Assembly: GCA_019285715.1 (NCBI GenBank)
Contig: CP079108.1
Coordinates: 186,001-250,000 of the forward strand
Source of the DNA: Sphingosinicellaceae bacterium
GTDB lineage: Bacteria > Pseudomonadota > Alphaproteobacteria > Sphingomonadales > Sphingomonadaceae
Direction of reading: 5' to 3'
DNA: 64,000 nt
A program made the translations under genes and the position numbers. Below are positions 4,694 to 62,486 of the stretch, piece by piece (positions within the stretch are counted from its first letter, which is position 1; every line of letters starts with the position of its first letter). A model generated the notes under the pieces. It made no database searches and was not told the origin of the DNA. It saw only the letters and a program-made list of their open reading frames with translations.

Positions 4694-6286
4694 TCAGTGT
4701 CTGAAATGCCGCATCCCGGTGAACACCATGGCAAGTCCCCGTTCATCGGCCGCCGCGATCACGTCGGCGTCGCGGATCGAGCCGCCGGGTTGGATGACCG
4801 CGGTCGCACCCGCCTCGGCGGCGGCGATCAGCCCGTCGGCAAACGGGAAGAACGCGTCCGAGGCGACGACGCTGCCGATCGTGCGCGGCTTGGCCCAGCC
4901 AGCGGCGGTGGCTGCGTCATCGGCTTTCCACGCCGCGACCCGGGTGGAATCGAGGCGGCTCATCTGGCCCGCGCCAATGCCGGCAGTGCTGCCATCGAGG
5001 GCATAGACGATCGCGTTCGACTTGACGTGGAGCGCGACGGTCCAGGCGAACAGCATGTCGCTGAGCTCGGCCGCGGTCGGTGCGCGCTTGGTCACGACCT
5101 TGAGTTCGGCCTCGGTCACCATGCCGTTGTCGCGCGTCTGGACGAGCCAGCCGCCGCCGATCTGGCGCACCGCGAGGCCGCTCCGGCGCGGGTCGGGGAG
5201 GTCGCCGGTCAGCAGCAGCCGCAGGTTCTTCTTGCCCGCGAACACCGCCTTCGCTGCATCGTCGGCGTCGGGTGCGATGACGACCTCGGTGAAGATCGCG
5301 GTGATCGCCAGCGCGGTCGCTTCGTCGAGCGTGCGGTTGAGCGCAACGATGCCGCCGAACGCCGACACCGGGTCGCAGGCCAACGCGGCGGCGAACGCCT
5401 CCGCCGGCGTGTCGGCCTGCGCGACGCCGCATGGGTTGGCGTGCTTTATGATCGCGCACGCGGGGCGACCGTCGCGGAACTCGGCGATCAGCTCGAGCGC
5501 ACCGTCGGCGTCGTTGAGGTTGTTGTAGCTCAGCTCCTTGCCCTGGACCTGGGCCGCCTGCCCGACACCGCGCCCGTGCGGCCCGGCCGGGGTGTAGAAA
5601 GCCGCCTGCTGGTGCGGGTTCTCGCCGTAGCGCAGCACCTGCGGCGCGTGCAGGACGAGCGGCAGCACCTCGGGGAACAGCTGGCGCTGGTCAGCGAACC
5701 CAAACCAGCTGGCGATCATCGAATCGTAGGTCGCGGTCGCCGCAAAGGCCTTGGCGGCCAGTGACTTGCGGAACGCCAGGTCGGTGGTGCCGCCGCCGGC
5801 ATCGAGCGCCTCGATCAGCCCGGCATAGTCGCCGGGTGCCGTGACGCAGGCGACATAGGCGTGGTTCTTGGCCGCCGAGCGCACCATCGCCGGGCCGCCG
5901 ATGTCGATGTTCTCGACGATCTCGTCGCGGGCCGCACCCTTCGCAACGGTTGCCTCGAACGGGTAGAGGTTGACCACCAGACAGTCGATCGGCGCGATCT
6001 CGTGCTCGGCCATCGACGCGGCATGGGTCGCGTCGTCGCGCAGCGCCAGCAGGCCGCCGTGGACCTTGGGGTGGAGGGTCTTGACCCGGCCGTCCATCAT
6101 CTCCGGGAAGCCGGTGTGGTCGGCGACGTCGGTGACGCTCAGCCCGGCGTCCCGGAGCGCCATGGCGGTGCCACCGGTTGAAAGCAGTTCGACGCCGTGG
6201 CGGGCGAGCGCGGTGCCGATCTCGACCAGCCCGGTCTTGTCGCTGACGGAAAGGAGCGCGCGGGTGATCTTGATACGGTCGGGCAT
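4694..6286 (-). CDS. purH: Bifunctional AICAR formyltransferase/IMP cyclohydrolase
   Basis: A 530-residue cytosolic enzyme for the last two steps of purine synthesis: formylation of AICAR with 10-formyltetrahydrofolate and ring closure to IMP. The N-terminal MGS-like cyclohydrolase domain (about 1-150) carries STGGT and the [12 protein letters not shown] signature at 69-80. The C-terminal transformylase domain has [12 protein letters not shown], the KHANPCG catalytic segment and KSNAIVYA. Length matches the family. The ATG at 6286 is the natural start. It follows the heparinase-like gene after about 70 bases and may be cotranscribed with rpe and that gene. Confidence 0.97.
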
Positions 6287-57109: not shown

Positions 57110-57681
57110 GGCTTTGGGGGCACGTCCTCTGCATGGCGCATCAGGATCGGCGCCTGCGACAACGCGAACAGGAACGTCAGTCCGGTCACGCCCCAGACCT
57201 TGAAGTCGACCCACTGGTCAGTGGTCAGCATCCGCCGCGCGACCTCGTTGGTGATCGCCAAGCCGAGGAACAGCAGCGCCCAGTTCCGCGTCAGCTTGCG
57301 CCAGCCCTCCGCATCGACCGCTGGAAAGCTGTCGTGAAGCACGAGCTTGAGCAGCGGGCGGCCTGTCGCCATGCCGAACAGCAGGATCGCCGCGAGGATC
57401 AGGTAGATGATCGTCGGCTTGAGCTTGATGAAGGTAACGTCGCCCAGCCACAATGTCGCGCCGCCAAAGACCAGCACGATCGCCCCGGTGAACCACAGCA
57501 TCGGCGAAATCCGCCCGGTCTTCCAGCGCGACACGCCGATCGCCAGAACGATGGCGACCATGAACACGGCCGTCGCGACGAAGATGTCGAAGACCTTGCT
57601 CGCCACGAAGAACGTGAGCAGCGGGCCATAGTCGAGCGCGACACGAAGCGCGGCAGGGATCGTCTTGCGGGGCGGAAGCAT
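57106..57681 (-). CDS. Inner-membrane septation protein A (YciB/IspZ)
   Basis: A 191-residue protein with five or six membrane helices. Seen are LDYGPLLTFFVASKVFDIFVATAVFM, KLKPTIIYLILAAILLFG, LLKLVLHDSFPAVDAEGWRKLTRNWALLFL and ARRMLTTDQWVDFKVWG, all diagnostic of the YciB/IspZ family that affects septation and envelope integrity. The ATG at 57681 was chosen because homology starts within ten residues. Downstream, cytochrome c maturation genes diverge from it across a large inverted repeat. Confidence 0.92.
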   Translation of the reverse strand: MLPPRKTIPAALRVALDYGPLLTFFVASKVFDIFVATAVFMVAIVLAIGVSRWKTGRISPMLWFTGAIVLVFGGATLWLGDVTFIKLKPTIIYLILAAILLFGMATGRPLLKLVLHDSFPAVDAEGWRKLTRNWALLFLGLAITNEVARRMLTTDQWVDFKVWGVTGLTFLFALSQAPILMRHAEDVPPKP

Positions 57682-57698: not shown

Positions 57699-57772
57699 CG
57701 TCATGCTGGCGGACGCCAGCACCCACCGATCCCCGCGCGGCGGCATGGGTGCTGGCGTCCGCCAGCATGACG
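57699..57772. repeat. 27-bp perfect inverted repeat (long hairpin)
   Basis: Two perfectly complementary 27-base arms (57699-57725 and 57746-57772, left arm starting CGTCATGCTGG) flank a 20-base GC-rich spacer. It lies between divergent genes, 17 bases from the start of septation protein A and three from the first ATG of ccmA, so it cannot be a normal terminator for either. It resembles a REP/BIME-type palindromic element. Confidence 0.85.
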
Positions 57773-57775
57773 TCT

Positions 57776-58366
57776 ATGAAAAGCCGGATGGGGTCGCCGG
57801 AACAGCTGATCGTCGAGGGTCTCGCCTGCACACGCGGCGGACGCGAGGTGTTCGCCGGCGTCGGCTTCACGCTCGCGAGCGGCGGTGCGGTGCAGGTCGA
57901 GGGTCGCAACGGCGCGGGCAAGTCGAGCCTGCTTCGCATCCTCGGTGGGCTGCTCGCGCCGTCGGAGGGGCGCGTCGACAATCCGTTCGACGTCGCCTGG
58001 CTGGGCGCGGACGCGACACTGAAGCCGGGGCTGACCCTGCGCGAGGAGCTCGATTACTGGGCGCGCCTCGATGGCAAGGGCGAGCCGGAAGTGGCCGCAG
58101 CGCTGGCGGCGTTCGACCTTGCGCCGCTGGCCGGGCTGCCGGTGGATGTCCTGTCGAGCGGCCAGCGTCGCCGTGCTGCACTGGCCCGGGTTCACGCGTC
58201 GGGGGCGAAGCTGTGGCTGCTCGACGAGCCTGCGGTCGGTCTCGATGCGGCGTCGCTGGCCTCGCTGGCGGCGGCAGTGCGTGCCCACCGCGATTCCGGC
58301 GGCGCGGTCGTTGTCGCCACCCACGGCGACATCGGCCTCGACGCGCCGCAGCGGCTCAGCCTGTGA
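57776..58366 (+). CDS. ccmA: Haem exporter ATP-binding protein CcmA
   Basis: A 196-residue ABC ATPase of the CcmABCD haem-handling complex. The Walker A motif GRNGAGKSS is at 43-51, the signature appears as LSSGQRRRAALARV, Walker B as LWLLDEPAVGLD, and the switch His in VVATHGD. ATP hydrolysis releases haem-loaded CcmE. Starts at 57776 or 57788 are both possible; the second leaves more room for a ribosome-binding site because the hairpin ends at 57772. ccmB follows after 10 bases. Confidence 0.93.
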   Translation: MKSRMGSPEQLIVEGLACTRGGREVFAGVGFTLASGGAVQVEGRNGAGKSSLLRILGGLLAPSEGRVDNPFDVAWLGADATLKPGLTLREELDYWARLDGKGEPEVAAALAAFDLAPLAGLPVDVLSSGQRRRAALARVHASGAKLWLLDEPAVGLDAASLASLAAAVRAHRDSGGAVVVATHGDIGLDAPQRLSL

Positions 58367-58376
58367 TCGTCGTTTC

Positions 58377-59021
58377 GTGATTTTGGCCTTGATCCGCCGC
58401 GACCTGATTCTCGCGCTGCGTCGGCCGTCGGCGCTGGCGGTGCCGGTGGTGTTCTTTGTGCTGGTCGCGGCGCTGTTCCCGTTCGCGGTGGGCCCCGATG
58501 CCCGGCTGCTGGCGCGGATCGCGGGCGGCGTGGTCTGGGTCGCGGCACTGCTGGCGGCGCTGCTACCGGTCGAGACGCTGGTGGCCGCCGACCGCAGCGA
58601 CGGCACCCTCGACCAGCTTGTCAGCCGCGGTATCGCGCTGGAGATCGTCGTTGCGGCGCGGCTGGTCGCGCACTGGCTGGGGTTCGCGCTGCCGCTGCTG
58701 CTGGCGCTCCCGGTCGCGGGTGTGCTGCTCGGCCTCGACGGCGTCACGCTGCGCCAGACCGCGCTCGGGCTGCTGCTCGGCACGCCGGGGCTGGCAGCGC
58801 TGGCGCTGATCGCTGCGAGCCTGACCGCGGGGCTCAGGGGTGGCGGCGCGCTGGCCGGGCTGATCGTACTCCCGCTCGCGCTGCCGGTGCTAATCTTCGG
58901 GGTCGGGCTGGCGTCGGGCACTGGCGGCGGCGCGCTCAAGCTGCTCGCGGCGTCGAGTCTCGTGCTGGTCGCGGTCGCGCCTTTCGCCAGCGGCGCAGCG
59001 CTGCGCAGCGGTATGGACTGA
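58377..59021 (+). CDS. ccmB: Haem exporter membrane protein CcmB
   Basis: A 214-residue protein with six membrane helices of the CcmB family. Seen are LALIRRDLILALRRPSALAVPVVFFVLVAALFPFAVG, ADRSDGTLDQLVSRGIALE and LLLGTPGLAALALIAASLTAGLRGGG. It pairs with CcmA. The GTG at 58377 is used as start, 11 bases after ccmA. Normally ccmC follows directly; here a Cys-repeat secreted protein gene is in between. Confidence 0.92.
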   Translation: MILALIRRDLILALRRPSALAVPVVFFVLVAALFPFAVGPDARLLARIAGGVVWVAALLAALLPVETLVAADRSDGTLDQLVSRGIALEIVVAARLVAHWLGFALPLLLALPVAGVLLGLDGVTLRQTALGLLLGTPGLAALALIAASLTAGLRGGGALAGLIVLPLALPVLIFGVGLASGTGGGALKLLAASSLVLVAVAPFASGAALRSGMD

Positions 59022-59067: not shown

Positions 59068-59622
59068 ATGAACAGGATTTTCGCAGCCTTCGCCGCGCTC
59101 GCGTTCGGAGCACTGGTTTCGACAAGCGCCACGGCGGCCCCCTCCAAGCCGTTGAACTACGACTGCACCAAGGCCGGCAACAAGAACAAGGCTGCATGCA
59201 AGGGTGCCGCGCCAGCGACGGCAGCGACCCCAGCCGCGAAGCCCGTACCCGTCACCAAGACCATTGCCGCGCCGAAGTCTGCGACCGCGGCCAAGCCGAT
59301 GACGTACGACTGCAGCAAGGCAGGCAACAAGAACAAGGTGGCGTGCAAGGGCGCTGCACCGCCGCCCGCCACCACCGGGGTTCCGGTCGCCAAGCCCGTG
59401 GCCCCGATGGCGTCGCAGGCCCCGATTGCAGCGGCGCGGCCCACCGCTGCGGCGCCTGCGGCGGTGACTCCAACCGTCGCCGCGACAGTCCGGCCCCGCG
59501 CCCCGAAGGCACCGGCGGCGGTCAATCCCAACGTCGTCCAGGCGACGACCAAGACCGGCAAGATCGTCCACTACGACTGCTCCAAGAAGGGCAATTTGAC
59601 CAAGACCGCATGCAAGCGCTGA
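59068..59622 (+). CDS. Secreted protein with three C-x10-C repeats
   Basis: A 184-residue exported protein. Residues 1-23 form a signal peptide ending ATA. Three copies of a motif Y-D-C-[ST]-K-x-G-N-x-x-K-x-A-C-K lie near 31-45, 80-94 and at the C-terminus, each with two Cys ten residues apart. They are joined by Ala/Pro/Thr/Val-rich linkers of about 30 and 70 residues that look flexible. No named family is recognised. GGGAG precedes the ATG. It lies between ccmB and ccmC in the same orientation, so a link to periplasmic thiol or haem chemistry is possible but unproven. Confidence 0.85.
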   Translation: MNRIFAAFAALAFGALVSTSATAAPSKPLNYDCTKAGNKNKAACKGAAPATAATPAAKPVPVTKTIAAPKSATAAKPMTYDCSKAGNKNKVACKGAAPPPATTGVPVAKPVAPMASQAPIAAARPTAAAPAAVTPTVAATVRPRAPKAPAAVNPNVVQATTKTGKIVHYDCSKKGNLTKTACKR

Positions 59623-59679: not shown

Positions 59680-60399
59680 ATGCACCGCTTCGCCAATCCC
59701 GCCCGTTTCCTGCGTATCGCGCGTGTCGCGACGCCGCTGTTGCTCGTGCCCGGGCTGCTGCTGACGCTTGCCGGGCTTTACGTCGGCCTGTTCGCATCGC
59801 CGCCCGACTACCAGCAGGGCGACAGCGTCCGCATCATGTACGTCCACGTGCCCGCCGCCTGGCTTGGTTCGGGGGGCTACCTCGGCCTCGCGCTGGCGAG
59901 CGCGGCGGCGCTCATCTGGCGGCACCCGCTGGCCTCGGTGGCGGCGCGCGCGATCGCTGTGCCGGGCGCGCTGTTCACCGCGATCTGCCTGGTGTCGGGG
60001 TCGCTGTGGGGCAAGCCGACCTGGGGCACTTATTGGGTCTGGGATGCGCGGCTGACCTCGATGCTGGTGCTGCTGTTCCTCTATCTCGGCTATCTCGCGC
60101 TCGCGTCCGCCGAGGCCGACCGCGAGGATGCCAAGGGCGCGGCGATCCTCAGCCTGGTCGGCGTCGTCAACCTGCCGATCATCAAATACTCGGTCGAGTG
60201 GTGGCATACGCTGCACCAGGGTCCGAGCATCACCCTGACCAAGTCGGCGATCGACCCGTCGATGCTGCTGCCGCTGTTCCTGTCGCTCGGCGGCTTTACC
60301 TTGCTGTTCGGCGCCGTGGTCCTGATGCGGATGCGGACCGAGTTGGCGGCGACCCGCGTTCGGGTGCGGAGCCGGCGGCTGGCGGAGGCGCACGCGTGA
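59680..60399 (+). CDS. ccmC: Haem exporter membrane protein CcmC
   Basis: A 239-residue, six-helix member of the haem-handling protein family. The WWD domain is intact (GSLWGKPTWGTYWVWDARLTS), with conserved periplasmic His in MYVHVPAAW and WWHTLHQG. CcmC loads haem onto CcmE. It overlaps ccmD by four bases (GTGA). The complete WWD motif here contrasts with its absence from the shortened CcmF downstream. Confidence 0.95.
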   Translation: MHRFANPARFLRIARVATPLLLVPGLLLTLAGLYVGLFASPPDYQQGDSVRIMYVHVPAAWLGSGGYLGLALASAAALIWRHPLASVAARAIAVPGALFTAICLVSGSLWGKPTWGTYWVWDARLTSMLVLLFLYLGYLALASAEADREDAKGAAILSLVGVVNLPIIKYSVEWWHTLHQGPSITLTKSAIDPSMLLPLFLSLGGFTLLFGAVVLMRMRTELAATRVRVRSRRLAEAHA

Positions 60400-60542
60400 A
60401 CCACGTCGAGTACATCGTCCCGGCCTATGCGCTGACCGTCGCCGGGCTGGTCGGGCTACTGGTCGTCAGCTGGCTGAGGATGCGCGCGGCCGAGCGTGCC
60501 GCCGACGTCGTCCGCAGCCGAAGCCGGGAGCCGCGCTCATGA
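60396..60542 (+). CDS. ccmD: Haem exporter small subunit CcmD
   Basis: A 48-residue single-helix protein (HVEYIVPAYALTVAGLVGLLVVSWLRMR) with a basic tail, standard for CcmD, which helps release holo-CcmE from CcmC. The GTG start overlaps ccmC and the ATGA at its end overlaps ccmE. Confidence 0.9.
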   Translation: MNHVEYIVPAYALTVAGLVGLLVVSWLRMRAAERAADVVRSRSREPRS

Positions 60543-60967
60543 AGGCCAAGCATCAGCGCCTCAGCCTCGTCGTCGGCGCGCTGGTCGCGCTCGGCGGGGC
60601 GATGCTGCTCGGCGTCTCGGCGCTCGGCGATAACGCGACCTATTTCTACGCACCGTCGGACATCGCCAACAAGCCGCCGCGGCCTGACGAGGCGATCCGC
60701 CTCGGCGGCATGGTCGAGCGCGGATCGCTGGCGCACGCTGGCGCGGCGACAGTCGCCTTCCGTGTTACCGACAACGCCCGCGAGGTCGCGGTCCGCTACA
60801 CCGGCATCGTCCCCGACCTGTTCCGCGAAGGGCAGGGCGTCATCGCCGAGGGCAAATTCGCCAACGGGGTGTTCGTTGCCGACACCATCCTCGCGAAGCA
60901 CGACGAAAAATACATGCCCCCTGAGGTCGCGGGCGCGATGCACAAGGTGCCGGGCAAGGTGGAATGA
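60539..60967 (+). CDS. ccmE: Cytochrome c maturation haem chaperone CcmE
   Basis: A 142-residue membrane-anchored periplasmic OB-fold protein. The N-terminal helix (LSLVVGALVALGGAMLLGVSAL) is followed by ATYFYAPSDIANKPP and IRLGGMVERGS. The haem-binding His and nearby Tyr are intact in LAKHDEKYMPPEV. It receives haem from CcmC and would normally hand it to CcmF/CcmH. A spacer of about 70 bases separates it from the shortened ccmF. Confidence 0.95.
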   Translation: MKAKHQRLSLVVGALVALGGAMLLGVSALGDNATYFYAPSDIANKPPRPDEAIRLGGMVERGSLAHAGAATVAFRVTDNAREVAVRYTGIVPDLFREGQGVIAEGKFANGVFVADTILAKHDEKYMPPEVAGAMHKVPGKVE

Positions 60968-61035
60968 CCGTCGCCGGTCGGGTCGAATGACCGCCAGCGG
61001 AGTCGCGTGACGGCGCGCGCCGAGGCCCGCTCCGC

Positions 61036-61878
61036 GTGATCGCCGAAGTCGGGCATGCGCTGCTTTGGCTCGCGGCCGCGTGCGCGCTGCTGCAGACGAT
61101 TGCCGGGCTGGTCCCGCGCGCTCGGCTCGAGCGGCTCACGGTCCCCGCCGCGATGGCCAACGGCTGGCTGTGGCTGTGGGTCGTGGCCGGTCTCGGCTGG
61201 GTGTTCTGGACGACCGACCTGTCGGTGGCCGGGGTTGCCGCGACGACGCGCAGCGACCTGCCCGGCGCGCTCAGGCTGGTGGCGATCGTCGTGCAGCCCG
61301 GGGGCAGCGTGATCGTGCTGGGCGCCCTGCTGGCGTGGGGCGGCGCGCTGCTGGCCTTCGTCGCGGGCCAAGCGCGACCGGCAATCGCTGGCGTCGGACT
61401 GGCGAGCGTCAGTGTCGCCGCAATCCTGCTGGTCGGGGTCCAGCCGTTCGCGCGGCTGATCCCGGCCCCGACCGAGGGCGCGGGCTTTCCGAGCGCGACG
61501 CGGGGCTGGTTGGCGGCGCTGGCGCCACCGGGCGCGACCGTCGTCGATGCCCCCCTGCCGCTCGGCGGCATCGGGAACGGCGTTACACTCACCGCTGTCA
61601 CACCGGTAGCAGGCCCCGATTCGACCGGGGTCATGGGCGAAGTCCGCGTCGACGGGGTCGTGCTGTTGCCCGAATGGCGCGAGACAATGCGGCCGCGCGA
61701 CCAGTTCGCAGCGGTCGACAGCAGGCTTGGCGTTGGCGGCTGGTTCGCGGCGCGCCTGCAACCGGAGGGCGATGGCGTTTGGCGGGTTTCGGTCACCCGC
61801 TTGTCGTGGCTGTGGCTGGCGGGCGCGCTTGCGGGCGTGGTCGCGCTCGTGGCAGTGATCTGGGCACGCCGGCGATGA
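61036..61878 (+). CDS. Drastically shortened CcmF-like protein (core domain missing)
   Basis: A 280-residue membrane protein starting with GTG. Its first 155 residues follow the start of CcmF in order: MIAEVGHALLWLA, WTTDLSVAGVAATTRS, VVQPGGSVIVLGALLAWGGALLA (family: WGNHEGS), and VGVQPFARLIPAP (family: NPF.RL.P.P). The end resembles the CcmF C-terminus (a periplasmic segment with LLPEWRETMRPRDQFAAVD, then a last helix and WARRR). CcmF is normally about 650 residues. The central region with the WWD motif, the haem-ligand His and about eight helices is absent, and the frame is intact. It overlaps the CcmI-like gene by four bases. Function as a haem lyase is doubtful. Confidence 0.7.
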   Translation: MIAEVGHALLWLAAACALLQTIAGLVPRARLERLTVPAAMANGWLWLWVVAGLGWVFWTTDLSVAGVAATTRSDLPGALRLVAIVVQPGGSVIVLGALLAWGGALLAFVAGQARPAIAGVGLASVSVAAILLVGVQPFARLIPAPTEGAGFPSATRGWLAALAPPGATVVDAPLPLGGIGNGVTLTAVTPVAGPDSTGVMGEVRVDGVVLLPEWRETMRPRDQFAAVDSRLGVGGWFAARLQPEGDGVWRVSVTRLSWLWLAGALAGVVALVAVIWARRR

Positions 61879-62486
61879 TCGCGGTCCTCATCGCGCTCGG
61901 ATTTGCCGCGACCGTGGCGTTGCTGCTCCTGCGCGGCCAAAGCGACGGGCGGATGCGGGTCGCGGTCGCGGTGGCGCTCGTCGTCGCGCTCGGCGGTTTC
62001 GCGTTTAGTGGCCGGCCTTTCCTGCCCGCATCGCCGCCGGCGAGCATCCGACCGGACCTCGCTGCGACCTCAGCGTTCGAGGCCGAGCGGCAGGAGCGCC
62101 TGCAGCGCTTCGGCGAGATCGGCGCGTGGCTGACCTTCGCCGACGCATTGATCCGCGCCGACGCCGCCTACACCGCCGTGCAGGGCTTGCGCGGCGCCCT
62201 CGACCGGCATCCCAATAGCGCCGACCTGTGGATCGGGCTGGGCAACGCGCTCGCAGTCCACGGCGGCGGGGTCGGCAGCGCCAGCCGGCTCGCCTTCGAC
62301 CGGGCGGCGATGCTGGCGCCGGCCAGCCCCGAGCCCGCTTTTTTCAGGGGCCTGGCCGAACTCGAGACGGGCGATGCGCGCCGGGCCGCACGCACCTGGC
62401 GCGCGCTGGCGGCGCGGTCGCTGCCCGATCCCGACGTCGACCGCTGGACCGCGATCGCCGAGCAGCGCGCGGTGGGTCAGCCTTGA
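61875..62486 (+). CDS. ccmI: CcmI-like TPR protein of cytochrome c maturation
   Basis: A 203-residue protein with two N-terminal membrane helices (MIAVLIALGFAATVALLLL and VAVALVVALGGFAFSG) and a periplasmic TPR-type region (FGEIGAWLTFADALIRADAAYTAVQGLRGALDRHPNSADLWIGLGNALAVHGGG, FDRAAMLAPASPEPAFFRGLAELETGDARRAARTW), as in CcmI, the apocytochrome chaperone. The genes ccmG and ccmH, usually found between ccmF and ccmI, are absent. The ATG overlaps the shortened ccmF (ATGA). Confidence 0.82.
   Translation: MIAVLIALGFAATVALLLLRGQSDGRMRVAVAVALVVALGGFAFSGRPFLPASPPASIRPDLAATSAFEAERQERLQRFGEIGAWLTFADALIRADAAYTAVQGLRGALDRHPNSADLWIGLGNALAVHGGGVGSASRLAFDRAAMLAPASPEPAFFRGLAELETGDARRAARTWRALAARSLPDPDVDRWTAIAEQRAVGQP

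Follow-up and report, generated by a model that had tools for sequence, protein, structure and literature searches.

The cytochrome c maturation operon of this Sphingosinicellaceae bacterium carries a ccmF gene that has lost its core, and a complete haem lyase is supplied by a second, phylogenetically distinct ccmFGHI cluster elsewhere in the genome. We propose, with a probability of roughly 0.55 for the reading as a whole, that the lyase has been relocated and that the coreless CcmF, here called mini-CcmF, was retained beside ccmE as a non-catalytic partner. The operon lies in the window, the 64,000-nucleotide stretch of DNA analysed (C1:186001-250000 of a one-contig genome of 4.43 Mb, 99.57% complete), where the gene order is ccmA, ccmB, a short extra gene, ccmC, ccmD, ccmE, mini-ccmF and a short ccmI:

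57746..58366, + strand: ccmA (TIGR01189, 178.6 bits; start codon uncertain, with an in-frame TTG upstream at 57665)
58377..59021, + strand: ccmB (TIGR01190, 180.1 bits)
59680..60399, + strand: ccmC (TIGR01191, 243.6 bits)
60396..60542, + strand: ccmD (PF04995, 32.2 bits)
60539..60967, + strand: ccmE (PF03100, 118.8 bits)
61036..61878, + strand: coreless ccmF (mini-CcmF, 280 aa, GTG start; an ORF with N- and C-terminal profile matches and no core match)
61036..61488, + strand: CcmF N-terminal part, residues 1-151, helices 1-4 and the PFARLIPAPTEG loop (77 bits; hhalign 99.4%)
61489..61581, + strand: junction, residues 152-182, replacing canonical residues about 161-521 (no core-profile match)
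61582..61857, + strand: CcmF C-terminal periplasmic beta domain and last helix, residues 183-274 (17-20 bits; alignments)
61875..62486, + strand: short ccmI of the old operon, 203 aa (an ORF in ATGA overlap with mini-ccmF)

The layout agrees with the first-pass annotation of this DNA, which had described CcmA, B, C, D and E as complete-looking (all five match their families) and a ccmI-like ORF coupled to the reduced ccmF by a 4-base overlap; the frames 61036-61878 and 61875-62486 overlap at ATGA and no gene lies in between. The short extra gene in the ccmB-ccmC gap (59068-59622, + strand) codes for a protein of 184 aa that probably has a signal peptide and contains three YDC(T/S)KxGNxxKxACK repeats; a Pfam search gave no match. 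A homologue is present in the same gap of genome G159 (L127, about 4720-5235), and in G001, the only other member of the genus compared, the gap has no room for such a gene. The product is possibly a periplasmic Cys-containing protein tied to the ccm operon.

Segment profiles cut from 22 canonical CcmFs (residues 1-160, 161-500 for the core, and 500-630) delimit what mini-CcmF has kept. The N-terminal profile matched with 77 bits (99.4% in hhalign for this part) and the C-terminal profile with 17-20 bits, or 25-28 for the G001 copy, against 10.9 for the best of 4,000 shuffles, while the core profile gave no match to mini-CcmF. In alignments the C-terminal part pairs with the periplasmic domain and final helix of canonical CcmF, and residues 151 and 183 correspond to canonical positions of about 160 and 522. 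Compared with canonical CcmFs of 629-660 aa the protein is shorter by about 350-380 residues, a central loss of the size first described. Our results thus show an in-frame deletion of roughly canonical residues 160-520, which likely removed about ten middle membrane helices if the canonical topology applies; this number being even, the C-terminal domain should stay periplasmic. The homologous N- and C-terminal segments, found in the canonical order, and the ccmF position between ccmE and ccmI mark mini-CcmF, as judged from its sequence, as a CcmF descendant.

What was lost includes the residues associated with haem handling, as had been noticed at first sight. In CcmF, TM7 and TM14 carry the TM haem and a beta domain sits over the active site on the periplasmic side (PMC10663686), and the ligand histidines of the E. 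coli protein are 173, 303, 261 and 461 (PMC8975832). A motif search found the WWD motif (WGxWWxWD) in the second-locus CcmF and in neither of the two mini-CcmFs, and mini-CcmF has none of the four haem-ligand histidines, the motifs HPP (P-His1), LLH (TM-His1), SVHxF (P-His2) and H-G (TM-His2) all being absent. WGNHEGS and LNPLLQD, both retained in the second-locus CcmF, are also missing, and N-terminal motifs that are invariant across canonical CcmF have been lost. Curated models lead to the same view: a Pfam search with mini-CcmF returned nothing above cut-off, so that neither PF01578 nor PF16327 identifies it as CcmF, its scores of 43.9 bits against 927.3 for TIGR03145 and 22.7 against 569 for TIGR00353 are too low for either family, and the NrfE/CcmF-like match in NCBIfam is confined to the first 149 residues and lies far under the cut-offs. 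Since mini-CcmF fails on the WWD motif, on the histidines and on the curated scores, it should not be annotated as a CcmF haem lyase; it is a lineage-specific variant within a known family. Both mini-CcmFs also have a Trp-rich second helix at residues 44-58 (GWLWLW ... WVFW / WLFW), a feature not seen in the canonical CcmFs displayed alongside.

Structure models give soft support to this assignment. AlphaFold produced low-confidence models (mean pLDDT 60 and 65), with good local confidence in the N-terminal helices, and Foldseek searches with them gave no E-value below 0.03; within that limit, the Thermus CcmF (6zmq) ranked first for the whole model and eleventh for the C-terminal part. A PDB profile search with the two mini-CcmFs found nothing. 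In searches covering 398 genomes from the family and another 398 from the order, whole-length matches came from the window genome (G000) and G001 only, among the matches listed; the next best listed were N-termini of full CcmFs. The few short frames listed belong to fragmented genomes or to G008, which was rejected as a further genus with a short CcmF because it appears to have a canonical operon with many frameshifts. In a separate contig scan with the mini-CcmF alignment, the matches listed were three full-length CcmFs. No description of a mini-CcmF-like protein in bacteria was found in titles and abstracts of the open-access literature.

The absence of ccmG and ccmH reported at first holds for the window locus and not for the genome. 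A genome-wide search for ccmF, ccmG and ccmH or for System II, which had been recommended, found a full ccmF-G-H-I set at C1:433586-437826, 188 kb from the window locus. Its ccmF has the WWD motif and all four histidine motifs, its ccmG codes for WCAACP and its ccmH for RCVVCQNQSI, and its ccmI codes for 415 aa. ResB (PF05140, System II) had no match in the whole genome, with positive controls, which rules out System II as the answer. With eleven matches to cytochrome c domains, the genome needs haem attachment, and the second cluster can supply it. Of the explanations offered earlier, a lyase encoded elsewhere is supported, and the other half of that proposal, a remnant with another role, is made likely by its conservation and constraint in a second species.

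That species, G001, has the same order ccmABCDE, mini-ccmF and short ccmI, with the same deletion and the same ATGA overlap, and carries its own full ccmFGHI. Because an independent genome shows the same gene order and deletion, the assembly collapse suspected earlier is refuted. The core deletion predates the split between the two species. The start of mini-ccmF directly overlaps the stop of ccmE in G001 (GTGA), which leaves no spacer; in the window genome a spacer of 68 bases separates them (60968-61035). The mini-CcmFs share 53% identity at 38% nucleotide difference, and differences per codon position of 0.32/0.31/0.52 show a third-position excess (p = 4e-8) that is present in each half of the gene (p = 4e-5 and 3e-4). 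All 10 indels between the copies are in frame, and the two copies have no stops, against about 6 expected in a simple neutral simulation at the same divergence. The pN/pS of mini-ccmF is 0.65, beside 0.63 for the short ccmI, 0.63 and 0.68 for the second-locus ccmG and ccmI, 0.43 for ccmA and 0.32-0.36 for ccmB, ccmC and ccmE; its dN of 0.42 is about twice that of full CcmF (0.20). These figures, which rest on two sequences (n=2), show that both species have conserved mini-CcmF and the short CcmI under protein-level constraint. For mini-CcmF this constraint is loose and may have ended recently, and we consider retention of the protein under selection probable.

The usual order in Sphingomonadaceae is ccmABCDE-F-G-H-I, and ccmE is followed by ccmF, ccmG, ccmH and ccmI in G078, G108, G032, G138 and, with frameshifts, G008. 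In the clade of the window (genera g1, g86, g21, g13, g61 and g32, as defined by a ccmC+ccmE tree in which several nodes are weak), a second ccmF type occurs, and the second-locus CcmFs sampled there group together at 100/100 support, separate from canonical CcmFs. An N-terminal tree sets the mini-CcmFs on a very long branch outside this second-locus group, which is as far as it resolves their placement. The old block has met different fates. Old and new sets coexist in G032, which has both ccmF types; within the same genus g32, G138, G243 and G280 have the old type only and G197 the new type only (L134, L135, L158), with no F-I found after ccmE in G197. A lone old-type ccmG with intact CxxC (CVPC/CLPC) directly follows ccmE in G159 and G255, with no F, H or I (L127:6461-7111, L126), and none of F-I was found after ccmE in G013, G021, G064, G131 and G191. 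The genus of the window kept the coreless F and I, and lost ccmG and ccmH. The fragmented genome G384 contains a second-type ccmF and another at 46% identity (C79:5616-7508, C379:13719-15743), and the extra copy may be contamination or a retained old copy.

The simplest reading of this distribution is that the second ccmFGHI, having arrived by transfer or old duplication, took over and that the old block was then lost piecemeal. We regard as highly probable the structural and evolutionary account that follows, in which the window holds the old operon with its ccmF core deleted and ccmG and ccmH lost, and the second ccmFGHI acts as the lyase. The clade then presents a series of replacement stages, with both sets kept, the old G only, the old I with a coreless F, or all lost, and genus g32 offers a natural series for replacement of a haem-ligation cluster.

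The short CcmI has 37-42% identity to the operon CcmI of G078 and G108, which identifies its gene as an ordinary old ccmI; its TPR and TPR_CcmH_CycH matches are weak and below cut-off, and two hydrophobic N-terminal stretches can be seen by eye. In other bacteria CcmI has been reported to bind apocytochrome and apoCcmE (PMC3884852). Without its core, mini-CcmF cannot be a haem lyase of known kind, and it would neither bind nor ligate haem. Its coupling to CcmI and the adjacency of ccmE led us to propose a docking or membrane partner: mini-CcmF would serve in the membrane, without catalytic activity, as a partner to CcmI, with which it is co-translated, and perhaps also to CcmE, so that apocytochrome on the TPR domain of CcmI might be kept near haem-loaded CcmE and then handed to the relocated CcmFGHI. 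This specific CcmI/CcmE role, suggested by position, homology and co-retention, is put forward tentatively, as sister genera live without mini-CcmF, and the protein evolves faster than full CcmF and has lost invariant N-terminal motifs. It seems rather doubtful that loss of the catalytic core has turned the former lyase into a dedicated non-catalytic adaptor, one linking CcmI and apocytochrome to the haem-export complex and CcmE.

The strongest competitor is a relic in slow decay, that is, an old ccmF vanishing after the second ccmFGHI took over, with its frame open by chance or its loss too recent to have left marks. The suggestion made earlier that an internal deletion is being tolerated could hold only in this form. 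The way in which sister genera lost the old block piece by piece would fit it, as would the raised dN and the lost motifs of mini-CcmF, but the deletion is older than the split of the two species, and at their present divergence the gene has no stops, its gaps are all in frame and the third-position excess is strong in both halves, which makes decay unlikely. Somewhat less likely still, mini-ccmF could be a translational or membrane-insertion leader, kept for ccmI translation through the ATGA coupling, with its amino acids of little matter. The overlap in both species and the conservation of ccmI agree with this, but amino acids are constrained in both halves, the C-terminal periplasmic domain included, and such a role has no need of 280 constrained codons. 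Constraint at the level of residues thus speaks against both decay and leader. The new minimal arrangement first proposed, with haem ligation carried out by mini-CcmF and CcmI alone in place of CcmFGH, draws on the intact, coupled frames at the ccmFGHI position and can be set aside almost entirely, given the missing WWD motif and ligand histidines and the full ccmFGHI in both genomes.

If the former lyase has indeed become a dedicated adaptor, the ends of CcmF would amount to a docking module that can be separated from the rest of the protein and does not depend on haem chemistry. The route by which CcmE, CcmI and apocytochrome reach CcmFH is still an open matter in the field, and a coreless CcmF beside ccmE and ccmI bears on it as a case in which nature has separated the catalytic part of the protein from a part that may serve in docking.

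Comparison with known systems places mini-CcmF closest to the System I lyase CcmF itself (6zmq, Thermus), with which it shares the N-terminal four-helix part and its PF-RL-PAP-EG loop, the C-terminal periplasmic beta domain with the last helix, and the site after ccmE and before ccmI. Unlike CcmF, it is without the WWD/P-His and TM-haem core, the four ligand histidines, WGNHEGS and LNPLLQD. Plant mitochondria also have CcmF reduced to parts, as CcmFN1, CcmFN2 and CcmFC, but the plant pieces are domains of one whole CcmF (PMC3884852), whereas in the present case the gene has lost its core and the genome has a full CcmF at another locus. The downstream gene resembles CcmI, or the C-terminal TPR domain of E. 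coli CcmH, and is an ordinary short Sphingomonadaceae CcmI; unlike the usual CcmI, it no longer stands beside ccmG and ccmH and is paired with a coreless CcmF, while a second, longer CcmI belongs to the other cluster. The specialised NrfEFG and SirEFG lyase clusters are a parallel in that they, too, give a genome further ccmF-like and accessory genes as a second set. In contrast to those, no complete lyase other than the second set exists here, and it is the genes beside ccmABCDE that are non-catalytic.
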